Assembly: GCA_020634575.1 (NCBI GenBank)
Contig: JACKBM010000005.1
Coordinates: 1-64,000 of the forward strand
Length of the DNA stretch: 64,000 nucleotides
Direction of reading: 5' to 3'
Source of the DNA: Ardenticatenales bacterium
GTDB lineage: Bacteria; Chloroflexota; Anaerolineae; Promineifilales; Promineifilaceae
Shown here: positions 43 through 62,656 of the stretch, one piece after another
Numbering within the stretch: the stretch's first letter is position 1
Layout: the number at the start of each line of letters is the position of its first letter
Notes under the pieces: model-generated
The model's database searches: none
What the model saw: only the letters and a program-made list of their open reading frames with translations
Told to the model about the DNA's origin: nothing
Program-made: the position numbers and the translations under genes

Positions 43-3018
43 ATGAAAGCGATTCAGGAACGCAAGCTGGCCCCTTTTCCCGATCCGTGGGACCTCCCGG
101 AGCGGCAACTCAGCATGGACGATCTGGTGGAGCGGCTGCTCCGGCCGGATGCCAACGGCTTCCTGATCCACGGCGGCCCCGGCAGCGGCAAATCGACCCT
201 GCTCAACTACCTGGCCGAAGCACTGGCCGAGGACGGCCGCGGCCGCGCTCTGGGGCCCATCCCCATGCAGCTCTACCGGGGGCAGGGGCTGCCGGACCGG
301 CTGATACGCGATGTCGCCGAGCAAATCATCTTCTACGCCCGCGAATATCTGCCGGAACTACCCTTGCTGGCCAATGGCAAGGAACATTCCACCCACGAAG
401 TGGTCAGCCAGGTTGAGATGGCGCTGGCGGCCCTGCATAAGGCCGGCGTGCAGCGCTGCATCCTTCTGTTGGATAACTTCGAGCAGAGCCACCCCTGGTC
501 GGCCGTGGCCCTGGCCAACCAGATCCGCCTCATCTTCGACAAGCACAAATTCTATTTTGGCTTCGCTCTGACGGCGGAAAGCGACCTGGAGGAGCTGCGC
601 GCCAAGGAAAGCACCTACTCGCCGATGCTCAACATCTCCGAGTCCTACCTGCTGCTGGATTATGACCGGCAACAGGTTGCTCGCTACGCCCAGGAGACGA
701 TAGAGGCAGCCGGGAAATTACCGGCGCTCCAGCCGGCCGAACAGGCCCGCCTCTGGCAGCTCACCCGCGGCTACCCGGCCCTGGTCGATGAGCTGCTGGC
801 CTACCTGATCCGTGGTCGTCAGAACGCGCCCAGCTACAGCCTGGACGATGCCCTGGCCCACTGCCTGCGTGACTACGGTCGGGTGGAGCCGCTGCGGACG
901 GCGGTGCGCAAGATCGAGTATCTGACTAACCTGGACATGAAAGGCAACCGGCCGGCTGATCTCATCGACAACCTGGCCCGCCGCGACATCTCGCCGGACG
1001 CCAATGATCGGGCGGCGCGGATGCTGCTGGCCCTGGGCGTTTTCGGCTGGGTGCGCAACTATCTGACCTGGCGCAATGAGTTCATGAAGATTTTCTGGGA
1101 GGAAAAGGCCGGGGCGTTGCTGGCAAGCTGGTTGAACCGGCCGGTCTCCTACCGTGAAAGCCAGCTCAGCGGCCAGGGCCAGATCGTCGTCAGCCTGTTT
1201 ATGGATATGGCGCCGCTGCTGGCGCCGGAATCTGAAGCCCGCTTCGACCTCCTGCGGGGCAGCATGGAATGGATCGCAAGCCTGCAAAACCTGCCCGCCA
1301 ACCTGCTGGATGGCCCCTTCCAGCGCTGGCGTGACCAGGAACGGCTCAACAACATCGGCTACGACCTCAACATTTTCCAGCACAATATCGTCACCCACGG
1401 TTTCCTGCCCATTTACGAGCTGGATCCCCATGAGCTGGACCAATCCGTGTTCGACCTGGCCCAACTGCTGGATGCCCTGCTCGGCCGCTTTGGCGTCACC
1501 CTGGAGGATGAGAAACGGCGCCAGGCTGAGGCGATCATCCGCCAGGAATGGGAGCGGTTGGACCAGGTGCGCCTCCAGCTTACCCGCGGCGGCGCCGTCC
1601 ATGTCACCCTGATCCGGGACCTGCTCGACCCCATCCCCTTGTTGCAAATCCTGGCCGAGTTGCTGGGGCTGGAGCAGGAGCTGGATATCAGCGGCGAGAG
1701 CTACCTGGAGATGTCGGTGCAGTGGGAGATTGTGCTGATGGTGGTGCAGGCATTTGTGCAGCAAATCAGCGGCGCCCAATTCCCCCACATCTCCCAGCTC
1801 GGGCTGACCTGGCGGGAGGCGCCGCCCGAGATCTGCCCGGACGGCACGCTCTACCCGCTGCGCGACCGCTATGTCATTTACTCCATGCAGAAGTTGTGTA
1901 ACTGCCGCAACAAGATGGAGACCAACCAGACCGGTCAGCGCTCCCTGATCACCATGGCCGACCTGATGCCGGTGCGTGATCACGAGGGCCGCGATTGGTC
2001 GACTATCGAACAGCCCTACAACTATGGCCGCGAGCTGGCCAGCCTGCTGGAAGGGGTGATGCTGCGCGGCGCCGGCGCCAATAGCGCGGAGCAGAGTAGC
2101 TTCCCCATCCTGAAACCGGCCGAAGTCAGCAACTTCCTGCGCAAGGACCTTTCCAGCTGGGAAAACGAGCTCTTTGTGACCTCGCTGGACAACGCTCTCT
2201 TTGTCTACCAGATCAAACAAAAGCTGCGCGCTGACAGCAACAGCGGCAGCAGCGCCATGCTGCATGATTACTGCCAGTTCTGCGGCGATTATGAGGCGCG
2301 CCTGATCAAGGATCTTTATTTCCCGCAGCGCAAATCAGTGGACTATGAAGATTATTGGCAATGTCTGACGCTGGGGCTGCAATACGTAGTGGAATTGCGC
2401 TGGGGCGCCAGCTGGGTGGCGCAGCGCACCACCGAAGACCTGAACCAGATGGCTGAGCTCATCGGCCACTCTAATGAAGAAATCCGCCAGCGCGGCCTGA
2501 TTCGCGGCCTGACAGAGCGGCTGGCGCTCAGCACCCGGCTGCTGGCCCATCTGCGCGATGCGGCCATTCCCAACTACATGGCCGGGGCCGATTATGCCGC
2601 CCGCAAATACGAGGATTTTATCGCCGTTAGCGGTCTGCGCGGCACCATCGCCAATGCCGAGAAAAATATCACCGCCATCAACGATTTTATCCATCACCAT
2701 GAGCAGCAGGAAAACCTGGCGTTGCAGCGGCGCGAGCAGCAGCTCAACCAGGCCAAAGAGGAGCGGGAGCGGCGCGCCGCCGAGGATTACAACGACCGCT
2801 TCAACCGGATCACCCTCGTCATCGCCCTCATCGCCATCTTCGGCGTCATCCCCTCATTCTGGGTCGACTTCGGCGGCGACACCAACCGGACCGCCATCAG
2901 CGAGTTGCTGCACCTGGATGCCGAACTCTCCTTCATCGTCCTGATCCTCATCTCCGTGATCATGATGCTCTTCAGCGTCGGCTGGTACTACTACGAATTC
3001 CACCGCAGACGGAAATAA
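43..3018 (+). CDS. Membrane-anchored STAND/AAA-like P-loop ATPase
   Basis: A 991-residue protein from the first ATG. The frame stays open to base 1 with no stop, so the true start may lie outside the window. A Walker A motif (GGPGSGKST, residues 44-52) and a Walker B strand ending in LLLDNFEQ (about residue 145) mark an N-terminal NTPase of the STAND/AAA superfamily. A long helical middle follows with no domain I recognise. Residues about 885-920 are rich in Glu, Gln and Arg and look like a coiled coil. Two hydrophobic segments close the protein (about 922-940 and 963-985), so the ATPase part is probably held at the membrane. STAND proteins with C-terminal membrane segments are sometimes signalling or defence switches, but nothing next to this gene shows that here. 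The NTPase call is firm; the role is unknown. Confidence 0.75.
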   Translation: MKAIQERKLAPFPDPWDLPERQLSMDDLVERLLRPDANGFLIHGGPGSGKSTLLNYLAEALAEDGRGRALGPIPMQLYRGQGLPDRLIRDVAEQIIFYAREYLPELPLLANGKEHSTHEVVSQVEMALAALHKAGVQRCILLLDNFEQSHPWSAVALANQIRLIFDKHKFYFGFALTAESDLEELRAKESTYSPMLNISESYLLLDYDRQQVARYAQETIEAAGKLPALQPAEQARLWQLTRGYPALVDELLAYLIRGRQNAPSYSLDDALAHCLRDYGRVEPLRTAVRKIEYLTNLDMKGNRPADLIDNLARRDISPDANDRAARMLLALGVFGWVRNYLTWRNEFMKIFWEEKAGALLASWLNRPVSYRESQLSGQGQIVVSLFMDMAPLLAPESEARFDLLRGSMEWIASLQNLPANLLDGPFQRWRDQERLNNIGYDLNIFQHNIVTHGFLPIYELDPHELDQSVFDLAQLLDALLGRFGVTLEDEKRRQAEAIIRQEWERLDQVRLQLTRGGAVHVTLIRDLLDPIPLLQILAELLGLEQELDISGESYLEMSVQWEIVLMVVQAFVQQISGAQFPHISQLGLTWREAPPEICPDGTLYPLRDRYVIYSMQKLCNCRNKMETNQTGQRSLITMADLMPVRDHEGRDWSTIEQPYNYGRELASLLEGVMLRGAGANSAEQSSFPILKPAEVSNFLRKDLSSWENELFVTSLDNALFVYQIKQKLRADSNSGSSAMLHDYCQFCGDYEARLIKDLYFPQRKSVDYEDYWQCLTLGLQYVVELRWGASWVAQRTTEDLNQMAELIGHSNEEIRQRGLIRGLTERLALSTRLLAHLRDAAIPNYMAGADYAARKYEDFIAVSGLRGTIANAEKNITAINDFIHHHEQQENLALQRREQQLNQAKEERERRAAEDYNDRFNRITLVIALIAIFGVIPSFWVDFGGDTNRTAISELLHLDAELSFIVLILISVIMMLFSVGWYYYEFHRRRK

Positions 3019-3026
3019 GAAAATTT

Positions 3027-3077: not shown

Positions 3078-3085
3078 TGACCCTC

Positions 3086-3477: not shown

Positions 3478-4359
3478 CTAGTCGCTGTCCAGTTCCGCCA
3501 GGAGCGCTTCCAGGTCAGCCTGGCTGAACGGGTAGCTTTCGCGGCAGAAATGGCAGTCGACTACGGTCTCGCCCTGTGTTTCGATGATGTCGCGGATTTC
3601 GGCTGGGCCGAGGGAGAGCAGCGCTTTTTCGGTGCGTTGGCGGCTGCAATAACATTGGAAGCGGACCGGCCGGTGCTCCAATACTTCATGCTCGATGTCA
3701 CCCAGAACTTCGGCCAGGATCGCTTCCGGCGGCCGGCCGGCCAGAAGCATCTCCGTGAATGGCGGCAGCTCCTGCAACCGCTCACGCAACTCGTCGATGA
3801 CCAGCTGATTGTAGGGCGGCAGCAGCTGTAACAGCAGCCCGCCCGCCACGACGGCAGCGCCCGATTCTTCCTGGTGCACGCCAATCTCCACCAGGGAAGG
3901 GGTCTGGTCGGATTGGTTCAGAAACCGTTCCAGGTCATCCGCCAGGCCAGCTTCGCCCCGGAGCACGACGCCCTCCATGAGCTCTTTCAGGCCAACGTCC
4001 CGCACCACCGTCAGGATCCCCTGAGCGCCCAGCGCCCGAACGACATCTGCCTGTCCTTCACGTGGCGGCACATCAGCATCGGGATAGAGCACATAGCCGC
4101 GCACCTTGCCATAGGCATCTGATTCCACCACGACTTTGCGCAATGGTCCCTGCCCATCAAACTTGATAGCGACTCGCTGGCGCACCTTAAGTAGAGCGCC
4201 TATCAGGGCGGCGCCGGTGATCGCATGGCCCAGCGCGGCGGTGGCCACCGCTGAAGTCTCATGCCGGCGCGCGGCCTCATTGACCAGATCAGTGGTAACG
4301 GCGGCGAGGGCCCGGACGCCGGCCCCTTTGGCAATGACACGTACGATGTAATCGTTCAT
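3478..4359 (-). CDS. hslO: Hsp33 redox-regulated chaperonin
   Basis: Hsp33 is a cytosolic holdase that is switched on when oxidative stress oxidises four zinc-binding cysteines. The 293-residue product has the family fold throughout and ends with the CYC motif (about residue 236) and the CHFC motif (about residue 268), the CxC/CxxC zinc site. An in-frame ATG exists at 4437, but a consensus TATAAT lies at 4429-4424 on this strand, so transcription should begin downstream of that ATG. The ATG at 4359 gives an N terminus (MNDYIVRVIAK) that fits Hsp33 starts. The small gene at 3086-3457 follows closely. Identification is firm; the start is inferred. Confidence 0.93.
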   Translation of the reverse strand: MNDYIVRVIAKGAGVRALAAVTTDLVNEAARRHETSAVATAALGHAITGAALIGALLKVRQRVAIKFDGQGPLRKVVVESDAYGKVRGYVLYPDADVPPREGQADVVRALGAQGILTVVRDVGLKELMEGVVLRGEAGLADDLERFLNQSDQTPSLVEIGVHQEESGAAVVAGGLLLQLLPPYNQLVIDELRERLQELPPFTEMLLAGRPPEAILAEVLGDIEHEVLEHRPVRFQCYCSRQRTEKALLSLGPAEIRDIIETQGETVVDCHFCRESYPFSQADLEALLAELDSD

Positions 4360-6118: not shown

Positions 6119-6811
6119 CTAGTTCGTTTTGTGCCACCAGTGATAGTTGCCGATGTGGGCATAGCCAGAGTGGCGGGCGGTGGTGTGGAGATCCTGCCGG
6201 TCCAGCGGCAGCAGGGCCCCGACCAAAGCCGCCGTTGGGCCGGATGGCAAGCCGGCGGCCAGGGACAGGGCCGAGCCATCAGCAATAGCCTCCAGCCAAT
6301 AACCACCGTAATTGAGTGTCTGCACCGGGATGAGATGGGCGGGGATGGTTGTGGGGTTGGTCTGACCGGCCGGTCCCAATCCACTGCTAAACAACCCCAG
6401 TTCCATCTGCTCCTGGTGGAAACCAGCCCGGCGGAAAGCCGTCTGGCTGGCGATGTTGCTGGTCGCGATTAGCGCCCGCATCGGCTCGTCGGCTTGCCGG
6501 GGCAATTGTCGCAACATCGTTTCGATGAGCTTGGTGCCCAATCGCTGGCCGCGGGCCGCCGGATGAACGCCCAACAGATCCAGCTCCCAGCGCCGCTGAC
6601 CGGTGGCCGTCATCGTGGGAAACGCAGCCGCAAAGCCGACGACCACGTTCCCTTGCCAGCCTACCACGGTGAGCTGATCCGGTGCTGATAACCCAGCCTC
6701 GACCTGTTCGACCGTTGCACGCTCGCCGGGCCAGATAGCCTGCTTCAATTCGTAAAGAGTGGCAGCCTGGGCAGGCGTGGCCGGTCGGATTGTCAGATTG
6801 CTCGAGATCAA
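6119..6811 (-). CDS. GNAT-family N-acetyltransferase
   Basis: About 230 residues. The N-terminal 160 residues form a GNAT domain: the acetyl-CoA loop region reads LDLLGVHPAARGQRLGTKLIE (given here in pieces: LGVHPAARGQRLGTKL), and a late SNIASQTAFRRAGF helix follows. A tail of about 70 residues has no known motif. I choose the TTG at 6811-6809, because it overlaps the TGA of the small upstream gene (TTGA), a typical coupled arrangement, and because it starts just before the first GNAT strand (LTIRPATPAQ). An in-frame ATG at 6877 would add residues that are encoded across the small gene. The acyl acceptor is unknown. Confidence 0.8.
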   Translation of the reverse strand: MISSNLTIRPATPAQAATLYELKQAIWPGERATVEQVEAGLSAPDQLTVVGWQGNVVVGFAAAFPTMTATGQRRWELDLLGVHPAARGQRLGTKLIETMLRQLPRQADEPMRALIATSNIASQTAFRRAGFHQEQMELGLFSSGLGPAGQTNPTTIPAHLIPVQTLNYGGYWLEAIADGSALSLAAGLPSGPTAALVGALLPLDRQDLHTTARHSGYAHIGNYHWWHKTN

Positions 6812-7831: not shown

Positions 7832-7940
7832 GGCGTATCCTCCTCGGCAATGCCCGGCCGGTCAGGTGACAAGGGAACCGGCCGGTTGGACAAGCGACTC
7901 AGATAATCTACAGGATGGCGCTGGCGATGGCAAGCCAAAA

Positions 7941-10204: not shown

Positions 10205-10432
10205 GTGGTCAGTACGGACTGAGGCCTTTCAGCCGTCAGTATGTTCGCTGCGCTCACGTTCAGTACGCTGCGCTTTCAGCAGTCGGTACGGGCCTGCGGC
10301 CCCTTCAGTGTTGACTTACCTACTACCCTGTTTGCTGAAAACGAAGCGTACTGACCACTGAAAGGCCGAAGGCCGTACCGAAAGTGAGCGCAGCGAACGT
10401 GCTGACCGCTGAAAGCGCAGCGTACTAACCAG
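10205..10432. repeat. Mosaic GTACG-word repeat block
   Basis: An intergenic patchwork of short words in both orientations: GTACGCTGCGCTTTCAG, GGCCTGCGGCCCCTTCAGT, TTCGCTGCGCTCACGTTCAG and their complements (GAAAGCGCAGCGTAC, GGCCGAAGGCCGTACC). The two halves can fold on each other. The same words build the blocks at 25155-25256 and 38334-38636 and the fragments near 24012 and 41340. No gene. Confidence 0.75.
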
Positions 10433-11509
10433 CTAACCCACCAACCACTCCCACCCACTCCTTTCCGCCTTCAGATACCACACCCCGCCGTTCAGGGCGC
10501 GGATGTAGGTTTCGTTGTATTTCCAGTAGGAGGTCTGCTGGTAGAGGGTGCTGTAGGCCTGCTCAGGTTGGGTGGCCCAGCCGAGGCGGCTGCGGACGTC
10601 GCCGTAGCCTTCGCGCCAGACGAGGCCGAAGCCGCGTACGGGTTGGTACAGGCCGGGCGGTGGCTCCAGCGTCGGGTCGATTTCCGGGTCGCCCTCATTC
10701 CATTCATCAGTGAATATCGCATAGTGCGGCGACAGGCCGTCGGCGAACAGGACGACAATCTGGTCCAGTTCGGCGATCCAGAGCATGAAGCCGTTCTCGA
10801 AGGGTTGTTCGGCAGCCTGAGAGGCGAGCGGCGGGTTGTAGGGGCAAATATCCGGCGGATTAGCGATAAACCATTCGCCCGTACAGCGCAGCGTGACCGC
10901 CAGGGTGACATTGGTGTGGTTGCCGGCGGCATTGGTGGCCGTCAGCATGAAGTTGGTGGCGTTGCGCTCCGTGTCGCGGATGGTGTAGGTGAAGCTGCCA
11001 TTCAGCGGCACTTCCCAGAACTCGCCCAGCTGTCCAGTCGGGACCAGCCACCAGAGCGTTACCTGCGTCGCCCCGCTGGTGCCCCAGCTCAGGATGATCG
11101 TGTCGCCCGGGTCGGCGATGGCGACATCAGCGGTGAAGAAGTGGATGGTGGGGCCGGCGGGCTGGTTTGTTGGGGTGAGCGAAGGCGGCGGTGCCTGGGT
11201 GGGCGTGACCGTCGGGCTGCCGGTCGCTGTGGCGGTAGCGGTCGAGGTTGGCGGCGGCGTCCCGGTTTGGGTTGGGGTGGTTGTCAGAGTTGATGTCGCG
11301 GTTTGCGTGTTGGTAGCGGTGGCCGGCGTGGTCGCTGTTGGTGTATGGCTGGGCGTGGCTGGTTGGGTCGGGGTGTTTGTGGGACCGGCCGGTGTGTCCG
11401 TCACATTCACAATCGGGGTCGGCGTCGTCGGCCCCCCGTCACAGGCGGCCAAAACCAGCGCGCCCAGTAACAGCGTCAGCCAGAAAAGGCACAAACGGGT
11501 GATTTTCAT
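10433..11509 (-). CDS. Lipoprotein with Thr/Pro-rich linker
   Basis: A 358-residue exported protein. The start at 11509 follows GAGGGGG. The signal peptide ends at the lipobox LVLAAC (about residue 23). About 95 residues of Thr, Pro and Ala form a flexible wall- or envelope-spanning linker. A domain with an Ig-like look follows (residues about 125-205, FFTADVAIADPGDTIILSW), then a Trp/Tyr-rich C-terminal domain whose fold I do not know. Chloroflexota encode many such surface lipoproteins. A binding or sensing role outside the cell is inferred only. The stop lies next to the repeat block at 10205-10432. Confidence 0.75.
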   Translation of the reverse strand: MKITRLCLFWLTLLLGALVLAACDGGPTTPTPIVNVTDTPAGPTNTPTQPATPSHTPTATTPATATNTQTATSTLTTTPTQTGTPPPTSTATATATGSPTVTPTQAPPPSLTPTNQPAGPTIHFFTADVAIADPGDTIILSWGTSGATQVTLWWLVPTGQLGEFWEVPLNGSFTYTIRDTERNATNFMLTATNAAGNHTNVTLAVTLRCTGEWFIANPPDICPYNPPLASQAAEQPFENGFMLWIAELDQIVVLFADGLSPHYAIFTDEWNEGDPEIDPTLEPPPGLYQPVRGFGLVWREGYGDVRSRLGWATQPEQAYSTLYQQTSYWKYNETYIRALNGGVWYLKAERSGWEWLVG

Positions 11510-23991: not shown

Positions 23992-24055
23992 TCCTTCGCT
24001 ACGCTCAGGATGACAGGCGGTCAGTACGCTGCGTTTTCAGTGGATTGGGTTTTGG

Positions 24056-43767: not shown

Positions 43768-44523
43768 CTAGAGGTTTTCGTCGACGGTGTCGTATGCTTT
43801 GGCGAGGGCTTCGCTGGCAGCGGCCTGGGCGGCGGCTTGTTTGGACCGGCCGGTGCCTACGCCCCAAACATCCTCATTCAGACAGGCTTCAACCGTAAAA
43901 ATCTTGGCGTGGTCCGGCCCGTCAGCTGAAATCACATTGTAATGCGGGGTGATGTTATACATGCCCTGGGCCCAGACCTGGAAATCACTCTTGGCGTCCT
44001 TGTGCAGCCGGCGCGCCTGGATACGACGCAAGGCTGGCTCGGCCAGGATCTCGACCATCTTCAGGATGGGTTCCAGCCCCTGGTCCAGGTAGATGGCGCC
44101 CACCAGCGCTTCAAAGGCGGCACAGAGGGTAGGGGTGCGATCGCGTCCGCCACTTTCGGCTTCGCCGAAGCCCAGGCGCAGATGGGGGCCTATGATGATT
44201 TGCCGGGCAAAACCCGCCAATGATTCCGAACGAACCAGGGCCGCGCGCAGCGCCGTCAATTCACCTTCATCTTTGTCCGGGAATGTACGATACAGATAGG
44301 AAGCCACGACAAAATCAAGGACAGCATCGCCCAGAAACTCCAGCCGTTCGTTATCCCCTAACTCATCGTCAGGGTTTTCATTGATGAAGGAGCGATGGGT
44401 GAGCGCCTGCAGCAGTAGCTTTCTGTCCTGGAAGGTCAGGCCCAGGCGAGCTTCAAAAGCCTCCAGTTCAGCAAGCGACTGTTCCGTTTCGTTGGTGACG
44501 GGGCGTCCTTCCTCGATATCCAT
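43768..44523 (-). CDS. rnc: Ribonuclease III
   Basis: A 251-residue RNase III, which cuts double-stranded RNA in rRNA and mRNA maturation. The signature NERLEFLGDAVLDFVV is intact. The second acidic site is AFEALVGAIYLD. A double-stranded RNA-binding domain makes up the C-terminal 75 residues (DFQVWAQGMYNITPHYNV, then GTGRSKQAAAQAAASEAL). The ATG is 2 nt after the fabF stop. The fabF-rnc order is common in bacteria. Confidence 0.96.
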   Translation of the reverse strand: MDIEEGRPVTNETEQSLAELEAFEARLGLTFQDRKLLLQALTHRSFINENPDDELGDNERLEFLGDAVLDFVVASYLYRTFPDKDEGELTALRAALVRSESLAGFARQIIIGPHLRLGFGEAESGGRDRTPTLCAAFEALVGAIYLDQGLEPILKMVEILAEPALRRIQARRLHKDAKSDFQVWAQGMYNITPHYNVISADGPDHAKIFTVEACLNEDVWGVGTGRSKQAAAQAAASEALAKAYDTVDENL

Positions 44524-49714: not shown

Positions 49715-50971
49715 TCATTTACTATTCTCGTGTTGCGGGCCGGTGGGTTGGGCACCGGCCGGTAACCGCAACACCAGCAGCAAAATCAGCAGAAACGCCG
49801 GCAACTGGACCAGGATCGTGGCTGATGTCAGCCCCACCTGATCCGCCAGCACGCCATACAGCAGCCGCAGCGGCAATAGCCCGAACAACGCATTCACCGC
49901 GCTAACTGTGCCGGCCAGCCCCGGCGCACTGGCCAGAGATTGCGCTTTCATGATAGGCCAAAACATCGCCAGATAAAAACTGAGCGGAATGCCCAGCAGA
50001 AAACGGGGCCAGACGCCCGGCCAATAGAGCCAGAGTGGCAGCAAAAGCAAAACGAGCAGCGTCGCCGTCAGGAGGATGTGGCGCCGGCTGCGCTGCTGGA
50101 GCCAGCGGTCCAGAAAGAACAGGGCGACCAGGTTAACTGCCAGGGCCAGGCCGCGATAAACTGAGATGAGGAATTGGGACATGCCCACTTCGTCGGCCAG
50201 CCAGAGGTTCTGTAAGCTGAAGGGGAGTTCGGTGACGTCATGCAGTAGTAGAAAGGCCAGCCAGAAGAGGGCCGTCCGGTTGGTCAGGACCGCCCGGATG
50301 TTGCCGCCGATAGCCCGCCAGAAGGGGAGTTCGGGTTCGTCATCATCTGGGCTGGCACCGGCCGGTCCCGGAAACCGCGTTCGCAGGATGAAGCCAGCGT
50401 AGATCAGCGCCAGCCCCCCATTGACGACCAGCAGGCTGCGCCAGGGCAGTTCCAGCCAGAAGGTAACCGCCACCATGATGGGCGGCAGCAGGGCGCCGAT
50501 GGTGTCGATCATGGTCGAACGGGCGTAGATCCGGTCCGGCGCCGCCGGATGGCTTTCCACCAGGACCACATCAGCGGTGTGCGCCAGCGGCCCGGAGCCG
50601 ATCCCATAAAGGAAGAAGCCCACAGCCAGCAGAACAAAGGTCGGCGCAACGCCCATGACCATCACGGCCAGGCCGATGAAGATGGCGCCCAGGCCAAGCA
50701 GCCAGCGGCGTTGCCAGATATCGATAAATAGCCCGTTGAGCGGTTCGACGACGACGGCGACGTAGTCGGTGATCTGCCAGAGGAGGCTGGCCTGGGTATA
50801 ACTCAGACCGAGCAGGTCACGGATGGTGGGTAGCAGCAGGTCAGGCAGGCCGCTGAGCAGCTCATCAAAAAAGCGGGCCAATAGACCGAGGCGGACGACC
50901 CGATCAGAGACGCCCTCGGCACGCGGGACCGGTTCAGGTTTTAGTTTGCGTAAAATCTGGTGCAAATTCAT
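49715..50971 (-). CDS. MFS transporter
   Basis: 418 residues with about twelve membrane helices. The helix 2-3 loop has an MFS-like IDIWQRRWLLGLG segment, and the central loop (about 195-220) is acidic and Pro-rich. Cargo is unknown; no drug or sugar signature is decisive. The ATG at 50971 opens the protein with MNLHQILRKLKPEPVPR. The longer frame to 51049 has no supporting ribosome site. Confidence 0.82.
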   Translation of the reverse strand: MNLHQILRKLKPEPVPRAEGVSDRVVRLGLLARFFDELLSGLPDLLLPTIRDLLGLSYTQASLLWQITDYVAVVVEPLNGLFIDIWQRRWLLGLGAIFIGLAVMVMGVAPTFVLLAVGFFLYGIGSGPLAHTADVVLVESHPAAPDRIYARSTMIDTIGALLPPIMVAVTFWLELPWRSLLVVNGGLALIYAGFILRTRFPGPAGASPDDDEPELPFWRAIGGNIRAVLTNRTALFWLAFLLLHDVTELPFSLQNLWLADEVGMSQFLISVYRGLALAVNLVALFFLDRWLQQRSRRHILLTATLLVLLLLPLWLYWPGVWPRFLLGIPLSFYLAMFWPIMKAQSLASAPGLAGTVSAVNALFGLLPLRLLYGVLADQVGLTSATILVQLPAFLLILLLVLRLPAGAQPTGPQHENSK

Positions 50972-52319: not shown

Positions 52320-53369
52320 ATGCGCGATCGACGACCAATCCTGACATTTATTCTCCTCCTCATTCTCACCCTGCTGGTGCTGATCGCCATCCTGCCATCG
52401 ATCGGCTACCGGCCGTCGACCCGTTACCTGGGGCAGGGGGAGCTGTGGGCGGCGCAGCATCTGACGCCGCTGGGGGAGCTGGCGCAGTATGCCTCGGTGA
52501 TTGAGGTGAGGGGGGAATTGGCCTATGTAGTGGGCGGGCAGGCGCCGCTGCAGGATGAGGGGCGGGCCCGGGGGCTGACCATCTGGGCCGTGGCGGACCC
52601 GGCGGCGCCGGCCGTTGTTGGCTTTCTGGATGGTTTCTTTGGCTACGATCTGGCCGTGAAAGAGGGTTTTGTCTTCATCGCCAGCGGCGGCGAGCTGGTG
52701 GTGGTGGATGCGCGGGATGGGGTCCGGCCGGTTATCGCTGCCGTCATCCCGGCCGAGGGGCTGTTTGAGCTTTTCCAGACTGGCCGGGAGCTTTACCTGC
52801 TGACGGCCACCGGCATCCAGCTTTATGACGTTGCCGAGCCCGCCGAGCCGCGTCTGGTGGACACGATCCCCGGCCTGGTCGCCTGGGATGGGGCGGCGGT
52901 GGCGGACATCCGCCTATTTCTGACTGACGACGCACTGGTCTACCTCATGCCGGACCGCGAGGGGCGGCTGTTTGAATGGGGCCGCCTGACGCTCCAGGCT
53001 GCGCCCGGCGACAGCAGCCTGGTCAGCATTGATAATGAGCTGGCCGCCGCCGGCTCCCTGGTGGTGGCCACCGGCCGGGGCGGCTGGCACCTCTTTGACT
53101 TTGGCCCCGCCACGCCGCAATACCTCGGCTTTTACACAGATGATGTCCGCGCCCCGGCCGGTCTGGCTCTCGATTACCCGCTGTTGTGGCTGGCCGATGG
53201 GGCCAATGGGGTAGTCGCCTTTGACCTGAGCGAGCGGGACCGGCCGGTGCGCGTTGCCTATGACCACGAGCCGTTCGCGACGAATGTGGCCGTGGCCGGG
53301 GATGTGGTGTGGGCCAGCAGCCGGGCGGTGGCGCCGGTGCGTGCGCTGCGGTATGCGGGCCGACGGTAG
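52320..53369 (+). CDS. LVIVD-repeat beta-propeller protein with membrane anchor
   Basis: About 349 residues. A single N-terminal hydrophobic anchor (about 8-28) is followed by repeated blades with LVIVD-like words (LTIWAVADPAAPAVVGF, LVVVDARDG, IQLYDVAEPAEP, VVAFDLSERDRPV). These are extracytoplasmic beta-propellers, usually adhesion or binding proteins. I use the ATG at 52320 because the earlier one at 52287 lies in the palindromic element. The function is otherwise unknown. Confidence 0.8.
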   Translation: MRDRRPILTFILLLILTLLVLIAILPSIGYRPSTRYLGQGELWAAQHLTPLGELAQYASVIEVRGELAYVVGGQAPLQDEGRARGLTIWAVADPAAPAVVGFLDGFFGYDLAVKEGFVFIASGGELVVVDARDGVRPVIAAVIPAEGLFELFQTGRELYLLTATGIQLYDVAEPAEPRLVDTIPGLVAWDGAAVADIRLFLTDDALVYLMPDREGRLFEWGRLTLQAAPGDSSLVSIDNELAAAGSLVVATGRGGWHLFDFGPATPQYLGFYTDDVRAPAGLALDYPLLWLADGANGVVAFDLSERDRPVRVAYDHEPFATNVAVAGDVVWASSRAVAPVRALRYAGRR

Positions 53370-53460: not shown

Positions 53461-54755
53461 TACCGCGGTACCACCAATCCGTGATCGGTGACCGCATACC
53501 CCGGAAACACCTCGTCGATCGACGGATTATTCAACCGGACGCGGATCAATTCGCCCAGGACGTCGCGGTAATCGGTGGTGATGGCCAGGTCGCCGGGGCC
53601 GACGAGCTGGTCGGGCTGGAGGCCGGGCCAGGCGGCGTGGACGCGGCCGCCGTTGATGCCGCCGCCGAGCAGCATCATCATGTTGCCATGGCCGTGGTCA
53701 GTGCCGAGGCCGCCGTTTTCCTGCAGCCGCCGCCCGAATTCTGACATCACGACTACGGAAACGTTATCTTTCAGCGGACCCAGGTCTTCGTAAAAGGCGG
53801 CCAGTCCCTCGCCGAGTTGGCCGATGTTGTTGGCCATCTGCCCCTCGCTGCTGCCCTGGGCAACATGGGTGTCCCAGCCGCCGACGTCGATGGTGGCAAC
53901 CTCGACGCCGACGTCCGCATGGAGGAGGTGGGCGACGGTTTGCATGGCGTTGCCGAAGTCGTTCTGGGGGTAGGGGCGACCGGCCGGTGGCCGGCCCGTG
54001 TCGATGCTGGTCATAATTTCCATAGAGGCCAGCGTCTGGTTGGCCGCTGCTGCCAGCAAATCATCCTTTTCATTATAGAAGGCGGCCAGCAGCGCCTGCA
54101 TCTCGCCGATGCGCTCGTCGCGCCCTTCCAGATGGTACTCGGCGATTGATTTGAGGGCGGTGCCGCTGATGGCACCGGTCAGGGCCGCCGGCAGCATGTC
54201 GCCGACGCCGATGGCGCGCAGGGCGGAACCGTTGCCGGTGTCCAGGCTGGTCAGATGGCGGGCCAGCCAGCCACTGTAATCGCCCCCTTCGCTGGCGCCG
54301 CGCTCCATCAAATCCTGGGCCTCAAAATGAGAACGGGTTTCATCCGGCGAGCCGGTGGCGTGGACGATGCCGAGGTCGCCGGCCTGGTAAATCTCCAGCA
54401 GCGGGGCGAGCGTTGGGTGGAGGCCAAAGAAGCCATCGAGGTCGAGGGCGCCGTCTGCGCCGGCCTGATCCGGCCGGGGGATGCCGATGGTCGGCCGGCG
54501 GCGATAATACTCATCATCCCCATGCGGCACGATGATGTTCAGCCCATCGGCCCCGCCGCGCAAAAAGACAACCACCAGCGTATCGCCGCGCGGCCCGACA
54601 TGCGGGTCAGCCAGCGACACGCGGGGTAGCCAGCTGGGCAGGGAGACGATGGCGTTCCCCAGAATAAAAGCGCTGGCGCTCACCAGGCTCCCCGACAAAA
54701 ACGACCGCCGGCTCAACCGGCCATATTCTTCACAATGCGTTACAAGCTTCTTCAT
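53460..54755 (-). CDS. DUF1501 protein (Tat-exported)
   Basis: 431 residues of the DUF1501/sulfatase-like family. The Tat signal has SRRSFLSG near residue 15. Family segments include VVVFLRGGADGLNIIVPHG, GWDTHVAQ, MSEFGRR and the DHGHGNMMMLLGGG stretch with possible metal-binding His and Asp. GGGAG precedes the ATG. It sits downstream of a DUF1800 gene, the usual pairing in planctomycetes and Chloroflexota. The joint role is unknown, but both parts are exported folded through Tat. Confidence 0.88.
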   Translation of the reverse strand: MKKLVTHCEEYGRLSRRSFLSGSLVSASAFILGNAIVSLPSWLPRVSLADPHVGPRGDTLVVVFLRGGADGLNIIVPHGDDEYYRRRPTIGIPRPDQAGADGALDLDGFFGLHPTLAPLLEIYQAGDLGIVHATGSPDETRSHFEAQDLMERGASEGGDYSGWLARHLTSLDTGNGSALRAIGVGDMLPAALTGAISGTALKSIAEYHLEGRDERIGEMQALLAAFYNEKDDLLAAAANQTLASMEIMTSIDTGRPPAGRPYPQNDFGNAMQTVAHLLHADVGVEVATIDVGGWDTHVAQGSSEGQMANNIGQLGEGLAAFYEDLGPLKDNVSVVVMSEFGRRLQENGGLGTDHGHGNMMMLLGGGINGGRVHAAWPGLQPDQLVGPGDLAITTDYRDVLGELIRVRLNNPSIDEVFPGYAVTDHGLVVPR

Positions 54756-54892: not shown

Positions 54893-56458
54893 TCACGTCC
54901 ATTGGAAGGTGGGGCTGGCGAAGAGGAGACCAACGGCGTCTTCCAGGTCGGCGCGGACGGCGCGGTTGTTGGGTGGGCCGGCGCTGACGTAGTTGGTGAG
55001 TAACTCGGCTGTGGCCGGATCCAGCGCCCGACCGCCGGCGATCTGGCCGAACAGGCCAATGATCTCGGGTGAGGTTGAGACGCCGGCGGCTGAGACAATC
55101 GCTTCCAGCGGCACGTTGATGCCGGGCAGACTATTCCGAGCCAGGGCCAGGCTGAAGTTCCAACGGGGCAGCAGGTTGCTGGCCCAGGCGGCTGAGACGT
55201 CCGGGTAGCCATCCGGCGGCGGCCAGAGATGGCGGGGCTGGCCCATCTGATTTAGCCAATCTGTCAGGCCGCGGCTGGCGCGGCGGCCGGGTGAGAAGTC
55301 AACATGTAGGGCCCGCAGCGCCGACATCATGAAGGTGTAGGGGCGCTTTAGCTTGGGCGGGGCGGTCGCAAATTCCTCGCTGAGGAAGATGACGCGCAAC
55401 ATGCTTTTGATGTCGCCATCCGTTTCCAGGTAGGTGGTGGCGACCCGGTCGATCAGGCTTGCCGGCGGCTCATCGGCGACGAAGCGGCGGACCAGCTTGG
55501 TGGCGATGAAGCGAGCGGTGGAAGGGTGGGTGACCAGCAGTTCCAGGAGCTGGTTGAGATCTTGCTGGACGGTTTGACCGGCCGGTAACGTCTCCCCCAG
55601 AATCACCTTCGCCCCTGTATCATGCTGATTTTCGTTGAAGACAAGCTGGCCCTGGCGGCGACCGCGCCGGCCGACGTGTAGGCCCGTCAAGGCCCGGGCC
55701 AATTCCTGGACATCCTGCTGGTCATAGCCGCCGTCAACACCCAGCGTATGCAGCTCCATCAGTTCCCGGGCGTAGTTTTCGTTGGGCTCACCCTTGTTGT
55801 TCTGCACATTGTCCAGGTAGGCCATCATGGCCGGGCTTTGGGCGGAGGCCCAGAGCAGGTCGCGGAATTTGCCCAGGGCGTGCGGGCGGATCACGTCGCG
55901 GTCGTCGACGATTTTCAGGAAGAGCATGACCTGGTTTTTACGCACGTAGATGTTGAAATGGTCGCTCCAGAACTCCACCATCGCTTCGTATAGCTGGCGT
56001 TTGGACATCAGGGCGCGGGCGTAGGTGACGCTGGCCAATTCGATGGCGGCATCGCGCGCTTCCTGTTCGACGAGCTCGCCGATTTCCATGTTGTAGAGCG
56101 TCAGACCGCGCACGTAGAGGTCGGCGGCACTGTCGTCGATCGCTTCCCAGGCAAGTTGCTGCTCCAGGTAGGCGGCCAGGCCCAGGTTGCGGGCGGCGCT
56201 GATATCGCCGGGCCGCGGCCCGTAGCCAGCTCGATTGAGCAGTCGCCAGACGGGATCGACGTCGATAGCCGGCAGCCCGGCGGCGCTGCCCGTTTGGGCG
56301 GGCAGGCCGTCGGGGCTGGCGGTGGGGTCGGCCAGGAGCAGCTCATCAGGCAGGTCGCTCTGGTGCAGCTGGCGGCTGACCTCGCTGCAGGCAGTGGCGG
56401 CGACGCCGGCGGCAGCCAGGCTGCTCAGTTTCAGGAAGTCGCGGCGTGTGAGCGGCAT
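54893..56458 (-). CDS. DUF1800 protein (Tat-exported)
   Basis: 521 residues. The Tat signal is TRRDFLKLSS, followed by a hydrophobic stretch ending at a lipobox-like AATAC. The mature protein has DUF1800 features: WRLLNRAGYGP, FWSDHFNIYVRKNQ, NENYARELMELHTLG and KLVRRFVADEPP. GGAGG precedes the ATG. It follows the membrane gene by 15 nt and precedes the DUF1501 gene. The biochemical role of the pair is unknown. Confidence 0.9.
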   Translation of the reverse strand: MPLTRRDFLKLSSLAAAGVAATACSEVSRQLHQSDLPDELLLADPTASPDGLPAQTGSAAGLPAIDVDPVWRLLNRAGYGPRPGDISAARNLGLAAYLEQQLAWEAIDDSAADLYVRGLTLYNMEIGELVEQEARDAAIELASVTYARALMSKRQLYEAMVEFWSDHFNIYVRKNQVMLFLKIVDDRDVIRPHALGKFRDLLWASAQSPAMMAYLDNVQNNKGEPNENYARELMELHTLGVDGGYDQQDVQELARALTGLHVGRRGRRQGQLVFNENQHDTGAKVILGETLPAGQTVQQDLNQLLELLVTHPSTARFIATKLVRRFVADEPPASLIDRVATTYLETDGDIKSMLRVIFLSEEFATAPPKLKRPYTFMMSALRALHVDFSPGRRASRGLTDWLNQMGQPRHLWPPPDGYPDVSAAWASNLLPRWNFSLALARNSLPGINVPLEAIVSAAGVSTSPEIIGLFGQIAGGRALDPATAELLTNYVSAGPPNNRAVRADLEDAVGLLFASPTFQWT

Positions 56459-57016: not shown

Positions 57017-57174
57017 GGTGTTTTCTCCAGAAAGTGGGGCCGGCGAGCGCGACCCGGATGGTATGTCCCATGGCTACCCACTTTAGGGGAGAAGATTGGC
57101 CATCTTGCTATGCAGATGTAAAGTAATTGTAAAATTTGGCCGGCTGGGGACCGGCCGGTTTGAGTACAGTCCGC

Positions 57175-58313: not shown

Positions 58314-58347
58314 AAAGGGGAACAGGTCCATACTGTTCCCCTTTTTT
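58314..58347. terminator. Terminator shared by peptide gene and TPR gene
   Basis: AAAGGGGAACAG (58314-58325) pairs with CTGTTCCCCTTT (58333-58344), followed by T-tract and the stop of the convergent TPR gene. It serves the plus strand well and perhaps the minus strand. Confidence 0.85.
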
Positions 58348-59539
58348 ATTGGTAACGTTTCAGGGCGTCACGGACCTGGGCGGCGATGATGTGGTCGGGA
58401 TTTGTGCTGATAAGAGCCAGGCTTTCCAGCCGATCTTTTTCTGCCTGGTCCGCCCATCCGAGCTTGCGATAAACACCAAAGCGTGTTGCCAGGGAGTAGG
58501 CGAGCCGCAACTTATTGTCCTGCTCTTGCCAAAAGCGTACGGCTTCGTTGAGGTAAGGCAGCCCTTCCATCGGACGGCCATCAGCCAGAGCTGTATCGCC
58601 CAGCCCGTGCGCGGTCATGGCCAGTAACCAGAGGTGGCTCCGCTCACGTAGATAATTTGTATCAATGCTTTGAAAAAGGTCGGTTGCCGCTTCATAGTTT
58701 GCCTGCCAGTAATAGATGGCCGCAAGGTTGATGCGACAAAGGTAAAGATCGTAAAGATCGCCGGTGACCATGAGAAGCTGTTCCGCCAGGCGGTATTTCT
58801 CAATAGCCTCTTCCCGCTGAGCCATGGCGCTAAGCGCATAACCCCAATTGATATAGATCCTGGCCTGCTCGATAAGGCTATCCCCCCGATTCTGTTGAAT
58901 CGTAAGGGCCTGCACAAAATAGGCTTCCGATTGCTCTGGCTCTTGCAAATCAAGAGCCAGAAGGCCGCGCAGGCTGAGGACAGAGGCAAGCTCCTGGGGG
59001 CTGGCTTCTGCTTGAGTGAATTGCTGACGCGACTTTTCGGCAAGCGGTAGAGCTTCTGCGGCTCGCTGTAGGCGGTACATGTCGGTAGCCAGCTGATAAC
59101 AGGCAAGGCCAATCAGGCCGGGATCCGCCAGCTTTTCGGCCAGGGCCAGGGCCTGTTGGTGGATCTGGACAGCGTCATGAAGCGACTGCTGGGTATTCTG
59201 GTAGCCAATGAGCTGCCCGAGGCGGCAAAGCAGCCTACAGAAGAGGGCATTGTCCTGAATGGGGGCGATGTCGACAGACTTTTGCAGCCAGCCAACCCAT
59301 TCATAATTCAGGTGCAGGCGTTCGATATAGCGAAACAGGTGCAGTAGTGTCTGCACAGTCTCTTCCCAGAGCTCGGGGTTCTGCAGCCCCCGGCTGATCG
59401 CCTTGCGCATATCGTCGTTACGGCGCAGCAGCATGGCGACATCATTTTCATTGGTATCGATGTTTTGGCGTTGCCAGAAGCGCAGGGTGTTAGCTGTTAC
59501 TTCCTGCAAAAGCTGTTGTTCGAGATCAGTTGCTTTCAT
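58346..59539 (-). CDS. TPR-repeat protein
   Basis: About 397 residues, nearly all TPR-like helices (for example GLACYQLATDMYRLQRAAEALPLAEKS and YINWGYALSAMAQREEAIEKY, quoted by their core words). No catalytic motif is seen. The ATG at 59539 lies inside the 3' end of the HTH-NB-ARC gene (overlap of about 14 nt), so the two are translationally coupled. In many STAND regulators HTH, NB-ARC and TPR are one chain; here they are split. TPR domains of that kind bind ligands or peptides. Ligand unknown. Confidence 0.85.
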   Translation of the reverse strand: MKATDLEQQLLQEVTANTLRFWQRQNIDTNENDVAMLLRRNDDMRKAISRGLQNPELWEETVQTLLHLFRYIERLHLNYEWVGWLQKSVDIAPIQDNALFCRLLCRLGQLIGYQNTQQSLHDAVQIHQQALALAEKLADPGLIGLACYQLATDMYRLQRAAEALPLAEKSRQQFTQAEASPQELASVLSLRGLLALDLQEPEQSEAYFVQALTIQQNRGDSLIEQARIYINWGYALSAMAQREEAIEKYRLAEQLLMVTGDLYDLYLCRINLAAIYYWQANYEAATDLFQSIDTNYLRERSHLWLLAMTAHGLGDTALADGRPMEGLPYLNEAVRFWQEQDNKLRLAYSLATRFGVYRKLGWADQAEKDRLESLALISTNPDHIIAAQVRDALKRYQ

Positions 59540-60938
59540 CAAACCTAGTGGTGAGGAAATTCAGGGTTAATTGGTGCAAAGCGTAGCGTCGTTCCGTGAA
59601 ATTTCCCTGGATTTCCAGAATAGAAGCGAGACTCAACTCCTGAACGGTAGATAAAAACTGATCAGCGGTCAGGTTGCTGATGGCGGTGAGTTCTGCGGCG
59701 GTGCCACCGGCCGGTGAAAAGTTGTAAATGGCCAGCAGTAATGTCTGGCTGGCAATCGATAATTTCTCCCAGGTCCGCTCAAAGATATCGTGATAAAGTG
59801 CCTCAACAGGTTGCCCCTGCCCGGAGGCAAACGCGTCAATCACTTCAGCCAGAGAAGAGCGCTTGAGGAGCGTTGTGATAAGCAGGATGGCTTGTGGATG
59901 CCCGTTCGTTATGGCCAGGATCTGCTCGATATGCTCTTCAGAGACCTCATCGCGCCGGGCAACGCCCTGGTCCTGCAAATGGAACAGCAGCAGGGCCCGC
60001 GCGTCCGCCTTGGAAAGCTCATGAATCGCGCGGGCGGGCACGACGATATGATTCTGCGGCTGGTTACGGCTGGTGATAATGAAGAAGCTGCGCCCGACAA
60101 TGGTACGGAGTTGTTCCAGGAAATAGCTGACAACCGCAGTGGACTCGATGTTATCAATGAGAATCAAGTATTCACGCTCGCTCAAAGCTTCCCGCAACAT
60201 GCGCTCGCGATGATTCAGCGGCAGCAAATTCTGGCCCGGGGCAATAAAACTAATCAGGCGCCCAACAGCCAGATCCCAATACTCTTCCGGCGACCGTGTC
60301 TGGCCGACGACCTCACCGGGCAGTCCGACAAAAAGCAATTGCTTATACCAGGGCTGGCGGGCAACATGATAAGCCAGGGCCATAGCCACAGTGGTCTTGC
60401 CGATACCGCCCAGTCCCGTTAGCAGCAGCATATGCTGGTTGTCACCTGGCTCTGTGAGAGGCTCCAGCTCCAGCAGCAGCTTGTCAAGGCCAAAGGTGCG
60501 GCGATACTCAGGGACCGGAAAATCCTTGAGCTTCAGGGGCATCTCCGGGGCAGCTTCCAGCTGCTCCGCGTCCCAGATAATCTGGATTAGCCAGTCGGCG
60601 CCATCCTTTTGCCGGCGAGAAAGCGTTGCTGTGGAGATATTAAATCTCTCTGCCAGGCTGCGCCGTGACTCGCCCTGGAAGTAAAAAGCGTCGACAATAG
60701 CGGCGATTTCTTCATTCTGGGGGTCTTGCTCTTTGGTGGCGGCAGCTCGCTGTTTTAATGTGTCCAGGGCTTTGTCCAGAATAGCACGGGCCAATTGCTG
60801 GGGCGGGGCAGCCTGCTCCCTGATAAGAGCCTGCTGAAAAAGGCGAAGATTGCGTAAATGAGTGACAAGATCTGAATCATTTACGCGCAAGGCGCGCAGT
60901 GCAGCAAAAATTTGAGCAGCAAAGGCGTCAGTTATCAT
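59526..60938 (-). CDS. HTH-NB-ARC STAND regulator
   Basis: A 470-residue protein. Residues about 75-120 form a helix-turn-helix (SRRSLAERFNISTATLSRRQ). The NB-ARC ATPase has its P-loop at GLGGIGKTT (175-183), Walker B in LILIDNIES, and a sensor-like FFIITSRNQ. A winged-helix-like end (about 390-470) completes the STAND core. Such proteins are ATP-dependent transcriptional switches or immune-type sensors. The start codon itself lies in an ATCATGAT palindrome, with related words upstream (60956-60984). The same words precede the DUF3179 gene, suggesting a shared regulator. Confidence 0.88.
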   Translation of the reverse strand: MITDAFAAQIFAALRALRVNDSDLVTHLRNLRLFQQALIREQAAPPQQLARAILDKALDTLKQRAAATKEQDPQNEEIAAIVDAFYFQGESRRSLAERFNISTATLSRRQKDGADWLIQIIWDAEQLEAAPEMPLKLKDFPVPEYRRTFGLDKLLLELEPLTEPGDNQHMLLLTGLGGIGKTTVAMALAYHVARQPWYKQLLFVGLPGEVVGQTRSPEEYWDLAVGRLISFIAPGQNLLPLNHRERMLREALSEREYLILIDNIESTAVVSYFLEQLRTIVGRSFFIITSRNQPQNHIVVPARAIHELSKADARALLLFHLQDQGVARRDEVSEEHIEQILAITNGHPQAILLITTLLKRSSLAEVIDAFASGQGQPVEALYHDIFERTWEKLSIASQTLLLAIYNFSPAGGTAAELTAISNLTADQFLSTVQELSLASILEIQGNFTERRYALHQLTLNFLTTRFDESN

Positions 60939-61396: not shown

Positions 61397-62656
61397 TCAT
61401 GAATCAGCATCCTGATAGATGATAGTGTCCGGCCGAAACGCGGCCCAGGAAAACCAGAAATGGTCCGCGTGCACAATAGGCGTGAGCTGGCGGCCAACCA
61501 GAGGCCCGGCCACCGCCAACCCCACAATATTCCAGCTGCTGCCCGTTTCCGCATCGACAAATAGATCGCCTTCCCGACTAAACGTGAGCAGTTGCCCATC
61601 CAGTTCCCGCGCAAACACATTGGTAGCCCCCACATCCTCGCCTTCGGCAATGGTGCGGTTGCCCAGGGCGCTGGCGGTGCCAGGGCGATGGAACAGAACC
61701 AGCTCATGCCCGGCCTGACTATCATTTATCACGCCTTGCTCAGCCAATAGCTCCAAGGGATAAGCCAGCGCTAGCGCTTCGTCGGCGAAGTAGAGCGTCA
61801 CAACGCGCGCCATAGCCGGGAGGCGACCATCCAGCTCGCCCGTAAAAAGGAAAGGATTGCTGCCGATCGTGTCATACCCGGCATAGGGGTTGGTGCCATA
61901 GGCGCGGTTGAACCCGGTCTCGCGGGAGAGCACCTGGCCCAGAGTGTAGGCCTCCTTAAAATCGGCGTAGCTGATGATGGCGGAGGGGAGAAATTCCAGC
62001 TGGGAACCAGTCAGCTCACCCACGATCGCCTCGCCGGTGAACTGCTGCCAGAGTGATTCTGTCTGTCTATCCCACATGACCAGATCCGAATTACGCAACA
62101 GGCCGGAGGTGCCGAAGTCATAGACCGTATCGCCGAGGTGGCGGTTAAAGACGATGGCTGAATTACAGAGGGGGCAAAAGGTGACGGTCACCACCTCACC
62201 GCCGACCTCATCGTTGACGATTTCGTGCCAGGTGAGGATTTGCAGCGGGTAGGCGCGGGCATCGCCATTAATCAGCAGGGAAATGACCGGTTCATTGTCG
62301 GCTAGCCATTCATCGGCGGCGCTAAAAGGGACGAATTGTGGGTCGTCCAGCGGCGGGATGCCGTCACGGGGCGGGCCGCCGGCGAACAGCTCGTCCAGGT
62401 CAATAGCGCTGTTCGACCAATCGGTTGCCCAACTGCCGACATTGCTGGCCAGGCGATCCGGTAGCAGGTTGGTTGTTGTTGGCTGGGTGGTGGCGGTCTG
62501 GGTATTGGCGGTTGGCTCTGGTGCCGTACCGGCCGGTGCCGCCATCGCTGTCTCACTTTCTGTTGCCTCGGTCACCCCGCCGCTGGTCGGCGTGCAGGCC
62601 GTCAATAACAGCGTCATGAGTAGCCAGGCGAATGTCAAAACGGTATGCCTGTGCAT
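61397..62656 (-). CDS. DUF3179 lipoprotein
   Basis: 419 residues. AAAGGA lies 7-8 nt before the ATG at 62656. The signal peptide ends in the lipobox LLLTAC. After a Thr/Ala-rich linker comes the DUF3179 domain with TWHEIVNDEVGG, TFCPLCNSAIVF (CxxC), GTSGLLRNSDLVM and SLWQQFTGEA. The function of the family is unknown; the paired Cys may bind metal or be redox-active. Operator-like words shared with the STAND regulator gene lie 24-46 nt upstream. The longer frame to 62773 crosses these words. Confidence 0.9.
   Translation of the reverse strand: MHRHTVLTFAWLLMTLLLTACTPTSGGVTEATESETAMAAPAGTAPEPTANTQTATTQPTTTNLLPDRLASNVGSWATDWSNSAIDLDELFAGGPPRDGIPPLDDPQFVPFSAADEWLADNEPVISLLINGDARAYPLQILTWHEIVNDEVGGEVVTVTFCPLCNSAIVFNRHLGDTVYDFGTSGLLRNSDLVMWDRQTESLWQQFTGEAIVGELTGSQLEFLPSAIISYADFKEAYTLGQVLSRETGFNRAYGTNPYAGYDTIGSNPFLFTGELDGRLPAMARVVTLYFADEALALAYPLELLAEQGVINDSQAGHELVLFHRPGTASALGNRTIAEGEDVGATNVFARELDGQLLTFSREGDLFVDAETGSSWNIVGLAVAGPLVGRQLTPIVHADHFWFSWAAFRPDTIIYQDADS

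Follow-up and report, generated by a model that had tools for sequence, protein, structure and literature searches.

A dispersed CGGCCG-core palindrome family with dialects and strand-polar flanks in one order of Chloroflexota

Why does a single ten-base palindrome recur throughout a stretch of bacterial DNA in which chance would hardly place one copy? The question is raised by the first 64,000 nucleotides of contig JACKBM010000005.1 (assembly GCA_020634575.1) from Ardenticatenales bacterium, a member of the Chloroflexota, and this whole 64-kb stretch is called the window below. A sequence-only reading of the window had picked out the palindrome ACCGGCCGGT, likened it to HIP1, the highly iterated palindrome (HIP) of cyanobacteria, and named a methyltransferase site, a chromosome-structure signal or a mutational bias as possible causes. 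The count of 31 exact copies and their positions were reproduced, against a mean of 0.05 and a maximum of 1 in 100 dinucleotide shuffles and an order-3 Markov expectation of 0.5. The inner 8-mer CCGGCCGG was observed 56 times where 15 were expected under the same model. Since the 10-mer and the 8-mer both exceed Markov expectation in the window, the component words, which had been named as a possible full explanation of the excess, do not account for the whole of ACCGGCCGGT. The many near matches noted by eye proved to be 22 places with one mismatch, giving 53 places with at most one mismatch (expected 3.5); the change was confined to the outermost base in 17 of the 22. When open reading frames (ORFs) were called greedily by length alone, 30 of the 31 copies lay inside them and, as had been claimed, in differing frames (22 xPAG, 6 xRPV and 2 TGRx). 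Chance, codon usage or base composition could appeal to PAG as a common peptide frame, used by 22 of the 30 genic 10-mers, but this explanation is refuted by the shuffles and Markov models as well as by the three frames and the non-coding copies, and its probability is negligible.

Relatives were gathered through the PEPCK gene (pck) of the window, of which the best 80 of 311 loci were kept; one fetched stretch (L095) had no base composition and was left out. The order was sampled with 56 genomes, including the metagenome-assembled genomes (MAGs) of loci L001-L006, L008 and L020, and all genomes designated G are drafts with no completeness given. In the PEPCK-locus stretches of Chloroflexota, few or no copies of ACCGGCCGGT were found, and several carry other palindromes on a CGGCCG core, with ACGGCCGT up to 42 times in 21.6 kb and TCGGCCGA 38 times in 21.6 kb; the stretches L007 and L009-L014 showed no such palindrome of note. 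Across the order, ACGGCCGT stands at about 1.0-2.1 per kb in 27 of the 56 genomes, with a maximum of 15,176 copies in one genome against 183 for the reversed control word. Longer stretches identified TCGGCCGA as the word of G006 and G171 and GCGGCCGC as that of G198, and observed counts far exceeded Markov expectation (819 against 28 for ACGGCCGT, 626 against 30 for TCGGCCGA and 330 against 17 for GCGGCCGC). In G167, G006, G171 and G198, 69-87% of all CGGCCG lie within the dialect word; the share is 49% in the window, whose own forms are CCGGCCGG/ACCGGCCGGT. G185 uses a different palindrome with another core, TGCCGGCA, while the longer stretch of G084 contains no comparable iterated word. The word of G185 was also seen six times in L031:1-21569 (21.6 kb; G016, a MAG titled Calditrichia bacterium and not listed in the order). 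In four genomes, the density of the dialect words is 1.36-2.02 per kb inside ORFs of at least 150 codons and 0.94-1.75 per kb outside them. These words are HIPs in the broad sense: palindromic octamers far above Markov expectation, found within genes and outside them. ACCGGCCGGT is the dialect that the window uses within a HIP family on a CGGCCG core in one order of Chloroflexota. The proposed comparison with related Chloroflexota thus uncovered dialects on a shared core; these had escaped the sequence-only reading, as had the strand-polar flanks described below.

ACCGGCCGGT itself is rare in three overlapping sets, namely 17 relatives, 150 genomes from the class and the 56 from the order, reaching at most 149 copies in 6.5 Mb among the 56 against 31 in the 64 kb of the window; this rarity in all genomes surveyed implies that the window's species is not among them. 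A pck phylogeny of 14 sequences did not resolve the position of the window; it was built, like the pck comparison below, from the window's sequence and 13 picked from the 80 kept loci. In a midpoint-rooted rpoB protein tree of 24 genomes, 14 genomes of the A dialect form one group (support 89/93), three HIP-less genomes join that group (90/97), and two genomes of the T dialect group with G172 (100/100). As far as these 24 genomes show, the dialects appear to follow clades. In G172 the core occurs bare: CGGCCG reaches 5.4 per kb, the outer base is not fixed and the flanks are weakly polar. G202 and G203 are similar at lower density, with skews of about 1-3 standard errors; these bare-core genomes possibly represent a transitional or relaxed dialect. 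At their respective loci L085, L098 and L099, the bare 6-mer was likewise seen to be strongly over-represented, with a weaker flank skew. A shared core combined with a varying outer base would be the look of a sequence-reading protein whose specificity drifts.

Are single sites kept over time, or is only their number maintained? The whole A-dialect octamer was identical in 88.8% of 419 aligned comparisons between A-dialect relatives (mean identity 81%), a count in which each alignment was taken in both directions and overlapping genomes and possible paralogs were included. In the same alignments, 8-mers centred on five other tetramers were kept in 16-32%, other NCGGCCGN in 40% and background 8-mers with six G or C in 27%. 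Outside the octamer, identity is 0.81 at the first base and 0.80-0.88 in the next bins, close to the global 0.82, so that the 8-mer itself is the kept unit. Individual A-dialect sites are therefore kept far beyond what the surrounding divergence allows. In rpoB, two A-dialect sites each occur in 13 of the 14 A-dialect genomes and others in 10, 8 and 5, and in pck one A site is shared by five of the six A-dialect genomes examined. T-dialect sites occupy other rpoB positions than A-dialect sites, and an in-place switch of one dialect to another was not seen in this gene. One-mismatch forms total 0.74-1.32 of expectation in four genomes and 0.83 in the window, a result that leaves neither a broad halo of decayed copies nor a general removal of near-sites. 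Inner one-mismatch forms are partly low (position 3 at 0.34-0.64 of expectation in G167, G006 and G171), and similar lows were found in G084, which has no HIP.

These data bear on the idea that the word is made and restored purely by a bias of mutation or conversion. Such a bias would fit the very high copy number, the decay of skew with distance and the low inner forms at position 3, but the last are equally low in the HIP-less G084, one-mismatch forms overall are not depleted as restoration would predict, and A- and T-dialect sites stand at different rpoB positions. Mutational bias alone, as put forward in the sequence-only reading, fails to explain 89% site conservation next to flanks that change at about the ordinary rate, and this cause is considered very improbable.

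Beyond the octamer, the composition of the two strands changes at the site. In the window and in five relatives tested in depth, the sequence 5' of the site is G-rich and C-poor and the sequence 3' of it is C-rich and G-poor. In the window, the 10 bases left of the site have a G-C skew of +0.42 and the 10 bases right of it one of -0.27, values far beyond those at random positions; at fourfold synonymous positions the skew runs from +0.38 to -0.68 across the site. The same polar switch was seen in G167 (815 sites), G006 (626), G171 (286), G198 (322) and G185 (79 sites, clearest up to 30 bp), sites whose flanks passed a sequence end having been dropped from these flank analyses. The two bases adjoining the octamer have preferences of their own, of opposite sign in several genomes. 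No switch was found at eight control words in G167, among them CGGCCG outside HIPs, at four control words in G006 or at the CGGCCG words of G084; two further control words had 12-13 sites each, too few to judge, and G008 (locus L008), with a weak excess of CCGGCCGG, showed no clear switch. In every dialect tested, copies of the palindrome sit at a local switch of the strand from G-rich/C-poor to C-rich/G-poor.

The skew is strongest at fourfold synonymous positions, which upholds the earlier argument that protein selection fails as a cause, and it fades over about 60-100 bp. Its fourfold values decay from 0.46 at 2-10 bp through 0.26 at 20-40 bp and 0.10 at 70-100 bp to 0.046 at 200-400 bp. 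On the coding strand, fourfold positions hold C 0.20 and G 0.52 upstream and C 0.54 and G 0.20 downstream, with A and T little changed, while at twofold sites C is exchanged for T upstream and G for A downstream. Among the periods tried, the skew has no helical periodicity, and the codon period of 3 bases is the only one that it follows; a decay that keeps no other register suggests tracts rather than base contacts. A single flank motif resembling Chi or KOPS (FtsK-orienting polar sequences) was not seen, only general G-rich words. An extended hairpin or cruciform was also rejected, as pairing of positions -k and +k, expected at 0.29, drops from 0.42 at k=1 to 0.33 at k=4 and is not in excess past the first few bases, and folding around sites, relative to shuffles, was no better than in random windows; the sites are thus not inverted repeats of the REP/BIME type (repetitive extragenic palindromes and bacterial interspersed mosaic elements).

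Whether the skew depends on the site was addressed at 18 positions in rpoB and pck, where site-bearing genomes exceed site-less ones by a skew of 0.243 (standard error 0.071). The excess is positive at 15 of the 18 positions and was equalled in none of 400 random placements; site-less genomes with a nearby gap, with any NCGGCCGN there or with a dialect site of their own within about 60 bases were left out. Skew as a pre-existing context is disfavoured by this comparison, though it would also fit the flanks of close relatives given below.

The reading that we favour, with a probability of roughly 37%, is that the sites are selectively kept recognition sites of a DNA-handling system that acts outward from them in a strand-polar manner. 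Each copy would be recognized by a lineage-specific protein system, with the core common to four dialects and the outer base set per dialect (G185, with its other core, is the exception). The system would work outward from the site over tens to a few hundred bases, with polarity between the strands, in an action akin to excision directed by a nick or break, to strand transfer or to guided translocation. Site loss would be selected against, so that sites persist, and the strand polarity would alter the tolerance of G or C on each side, so that skew builds up after a site has arisen. An outward polar process starting at the site is favoured because the skew tells the strands apart, which duplex shape cannot do, and fades without register. 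Biologically, the system would most likely serve the cell in homologous repair or recombination of its own DNA. The more specific proposal is put forward tentatively and as doubtful, namely that a previously unreported strand-polar DNA transaction starts at CGGCCG-type palindromes; it might be programmed nicking or strand exchange at the thousands of sites in each chromosome, specific enough to give rise to dialects and leaving a footprint in strand composition.

Several observations weigh against this reading. No acting protein could be tied to the site. Fourfold and non-coding positions trade C for G without a rise in T, and these compositions exclude cytosine deamination in exposed strands as the sole cause of the skew. 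Flanks near sites do not diverge faster, as a mutagenic repair tract might predict. In relatives of 81% identity, the flank opposite a missing site retains a skew of 0.140 +- 0.031, against 0.168 +- 0.031 (10-30 bp, 47 comparisons), which could mean that skew precedes the site, and both comparisons of skew with site presence use related, non-independent genomes. Site conservation was measured in the A dialect alone, and one of the two widely shared rpoB site words is also found in three genomes outside the A group. In G167 and G171, words that differ from the site at the outermost base are 1.8-1.9 times as common as expected and may be decayed copies. MutL was found in HIP-bearing and HIP-less genomes alike and is missing from one HIP-dense draft, G166. 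A further point on this side is the association of HIPs with PF00145 (C5-cytosine methyltransferase), which favours a role in methylation: among the 30 genomes searched, this family was matched in 16 of the 22 that are HIP-dense or bare-core and in 1 of the other 8 (Fisher one-sided 0.005), in a grouping that was made after the data were seen and is uncorrected for relatedness and genome size.

This association leads to the ratchet of methyltransferase and methyl-directed mismatch repair, Elhai's model for cyanobacteria, by which sites accumulate as a by-product. According to the part of PMC4390886 consulted, where HIPs are over-represented in a cyanobacterial genome, a methyltransferase that can modify them is generally present. 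PF00145 was likewise matched in 13 of the 19 HIP-dense genomes and in all three bare-core genomes, and the contrast between the 19 dense and the 11 remaining genomes (4 of 11) gave a Fisher one-sided value of 0.09. The other six HIP-dense drafts (G001, G004, G169, G173, G185 and G197) had no PF00145 match, and among these G004, G169 and G197 also had no PF01555 match better than 4e-8; G197 looks incomplete, with no MutL match and a partial rpoB. An obligatory methyltransferase is therefore not supported. Of the methyltransferase-site cause suggested for the window, an association is seen: such an enzyme is not shown to be necessary for HIPs but may be connected with them. The ratchet also does not predict polar flanks, and those methyltransferase genes that are present are HIP-poor. 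The cores of PF00145 loci contain 5 HIPs where 33 are expected (77 against 138 in whole loci), and those of PF01555 loci 7 where 18 are expected (100 against 115), with 23 and 22 of the 30 loci used, respectively, after genomes without a dialect had been dropped; loci of at most 3,300 bases gave no core. Methyltransferase genes are often mobile and rpoB is a vertical gene. Since rpoB too lies below the genome average (1-5 HIPs against about 4-8), the shortage in methyltransferase genes is a sign, not proof, that new DNA fills with sites slowly. MutL, above the cut-off in 51 of the 56 genomes, does not discriminate and is uninformative as an explanatory gene. No DNA-methylation gene was found among 39 distinct ORFs of the window (ten scanned against NCBIfam; Pfam was used for the others and for one of these ten), the Hen1 encoded there being an RNA methyltransferase. 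Taken together, the ratchet is judged quite improbable.

The strongest rival to a kept recognition site with outward action is a tag for the uptake of self-DNA, in which biased uptake and recombination multiply and keep the palindrome by molecular drive, in the manner of DNA uptake sequences (DUS) and uptake signal sequences (USS). It holds this place because the palindrome resembles DUS in its dialects, its conservation and its scarcity in genes that are often mobile. The dialects vary on a shared core and follow clades, copies number in the thousands, sites are conserved over the long term and the methyltransferase genes are depleted (5 against 33 and 7 against 18 in the cores), a depletion that is only partly special, as the vertical rpoB is HIP-poor as well. 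Known DUS and USS are to our knowledge non-palindromic and oriented, whereas the words described here are palindromes. Eight DUS dialects that follow clades around a constant CTG core are described in the part of PMC3630211 (Frye 2013) consulted, and strand-polar flanks are absent from the DUS accounts examined there. An uptake tag is accordingly regarded as unlikely.

A further rival is a site of chromosome architecture, at which a nucleoid protein or SMC-type loader would bind the palindromes and spacing would matter. The density in relatives is about one site per 0.5-1.1 kb, within genes as well as outside them, and gaps below 200 bp are mildly under-represented in most of these genomes. 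The spread of about one copy per 2 kb noted earlier proved more even than random for the 31 10-mers, whose smallest gap is 551 bp and whose coefficient of variation (CV) is 0.57; 0.04% of 5000 random simulations were equally even, and none of the 5000 matched the smallest gap. This evenness did not extend to the 56 8-mers (smallest gap 24, CV 0.95) or to most relatives, where spacing is irregular (CV 0.80-1.12), and strictly regular spacing was therefore rejected beyond the 31 10-mers of the window. Duplex shape cannot tell the G-rich from the C-rich strand, and a static dimer would not be expected to leave a polar skew over 100 bp. The chromosome-structure cause named at the outset can still be entertained but is rather improbable.

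In the window, exact matches to ACCGGCCGGT lie at 1136-1145, 3665-3674, 6365-6374, 7877-7886, 11384-11393, 11938-11947, 12970-12979, 15020-15029, 17824-17833, 19095-19104, 21789-21798, 22498-22507, 25490-25499, 28739-28748, 29290-29299, 31369-31378, 32318-32327, 33051-33060, 34178-34187, 37273-37282, 38748-38757, 41050-41059 (the copy in no called ORF), 43845-43854, 49754-49763, 50357-50366, 53239-53248, 53979-53988, 55577-55586, 57150-57159, 59706-59715 and 62528-62537. The one-mismatch search added CCGGCCGG with one outer base of the 10-mer changed at 948-955 and at 16 further places, each starting one base after 7853, 12066, 13762, 15062, 16098, 16656, 21058, 28678, 35432, 37975, 39196, 51338, 51895, 52723, 53070 and 53153. 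In the other 8 of the 56 copies of CCGGCCGG, both outer bases differ. The segment 11747-16979 encodes the bacterial RNA repair pair hen1 and pnkp (NCBIfam TIGR04074 and TIGR04075) and has three of the palindromes inside it, those at 11938 and 12970 in hen1 and that at 15020 in pnkp.

Other elements were met in passing. A short dispersed repeat, CAGTACGCTGCGC, occurs with its one- and two-mismatch forms on both strands at 10261-10427, 24022-24034 and 38389-38608, partly within a 60-bp tandem array (38387-38529) that adjoins a TAGCTGT array (38332-38362). An NB-ARC type STAND NTPase adjoining a TPR protein (58346-60938) and a 991-aa protein with an AAA_16 ATPase domain (43-3018) are possibly involved in signalling or defence. 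In the relative G167, an imperfect inverted repeat of about 155 bp (L166:10887-11041, folding z -6.9) has many related copies in G166, G168, G169 and G170; it had no Rfam match and looks like a REP-type element or a miniature inverted-repeat transposable element (MITE).

How do the Chloroflexota HIPs compare with known systems? REP/BIME and MITE repeats are dispersed and self-complementary, as the HIPs are, but longer and mostly intergenic, whereas the conserved unit of the HIPs stops at 8 bases and their flanks have no hairpin excess. Chi and KOPS are polar motifs, and the flanks of the HIPs share with them a G-rich strand that runs 5' to 3' toward a centre; unlike Chi and KOPS, the HIPs have no single G-rich motif but composition only, arranged round each palindrome. 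DUS of the Neisseriaceae, as far as described in PMC3630211, resemble the HIPs in their thousands of copies, strong conservation and dialects on a shared core that follow phylogeny, a pattern to which only G185 (TGCCGGCA) is an exception; the palindromic form and the symmetric skewed flanks set the HIPs apart from them. The likeness to HIP1 proposed in the sequence-only reading holds: both are abundant palindromes, lie within genes and outside them and have alternative forms in relatives. HIP1 (GCGATCGC) and the alternate cyanobacterial HIPs are palindromes some 8 bp long, with roughly 500-2500 copies per Mb both inside and outside genes, and other palindromes take their place in some relatives, as given in the part of PMC4390886 consulted; the purpose of HIP1 is still debated, and the same source offers a model, not proof. 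The words skew and Chloroflex do not appear in its main text, and no earlier report of HIP-like palindromes in Chloroflexota was found among the literature matches listed. HIP1 belongs to another phylum and has the core CGATCG rather than CGGCCG, so that the Chloroflexota words are not GCGATCGC; they further differ from HIP1 in that dialects vary mainly in the outer base and group by clade, and that a methyltransferase was not found in every HIP-dense genome (drafts). Their strong polar flanks contrast with those of HIP1, which are weak beyond the two adjoining bases: at 447 sites in seven HIP1-rich genomes (phylum of locus L059), G is preferred at these two bases in most genomes, and the skew farther out is near zero in most bins, apart from a weak skew of the same sign as in the Chloroflexota at 20-50 bp and, at fourfold sites, 12-40 bp away. 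The Chloroflexota words form a second HIP family, outside the cyanobacteria, that comprises four dialects on one core, a different word and clades that have no HIP, with single sites conserved across many genomes. Comparison within it allows methylation, repair, uptake and structure to be separated as candidate causes, and the flank skew adds a new observable that can be used in any genome.

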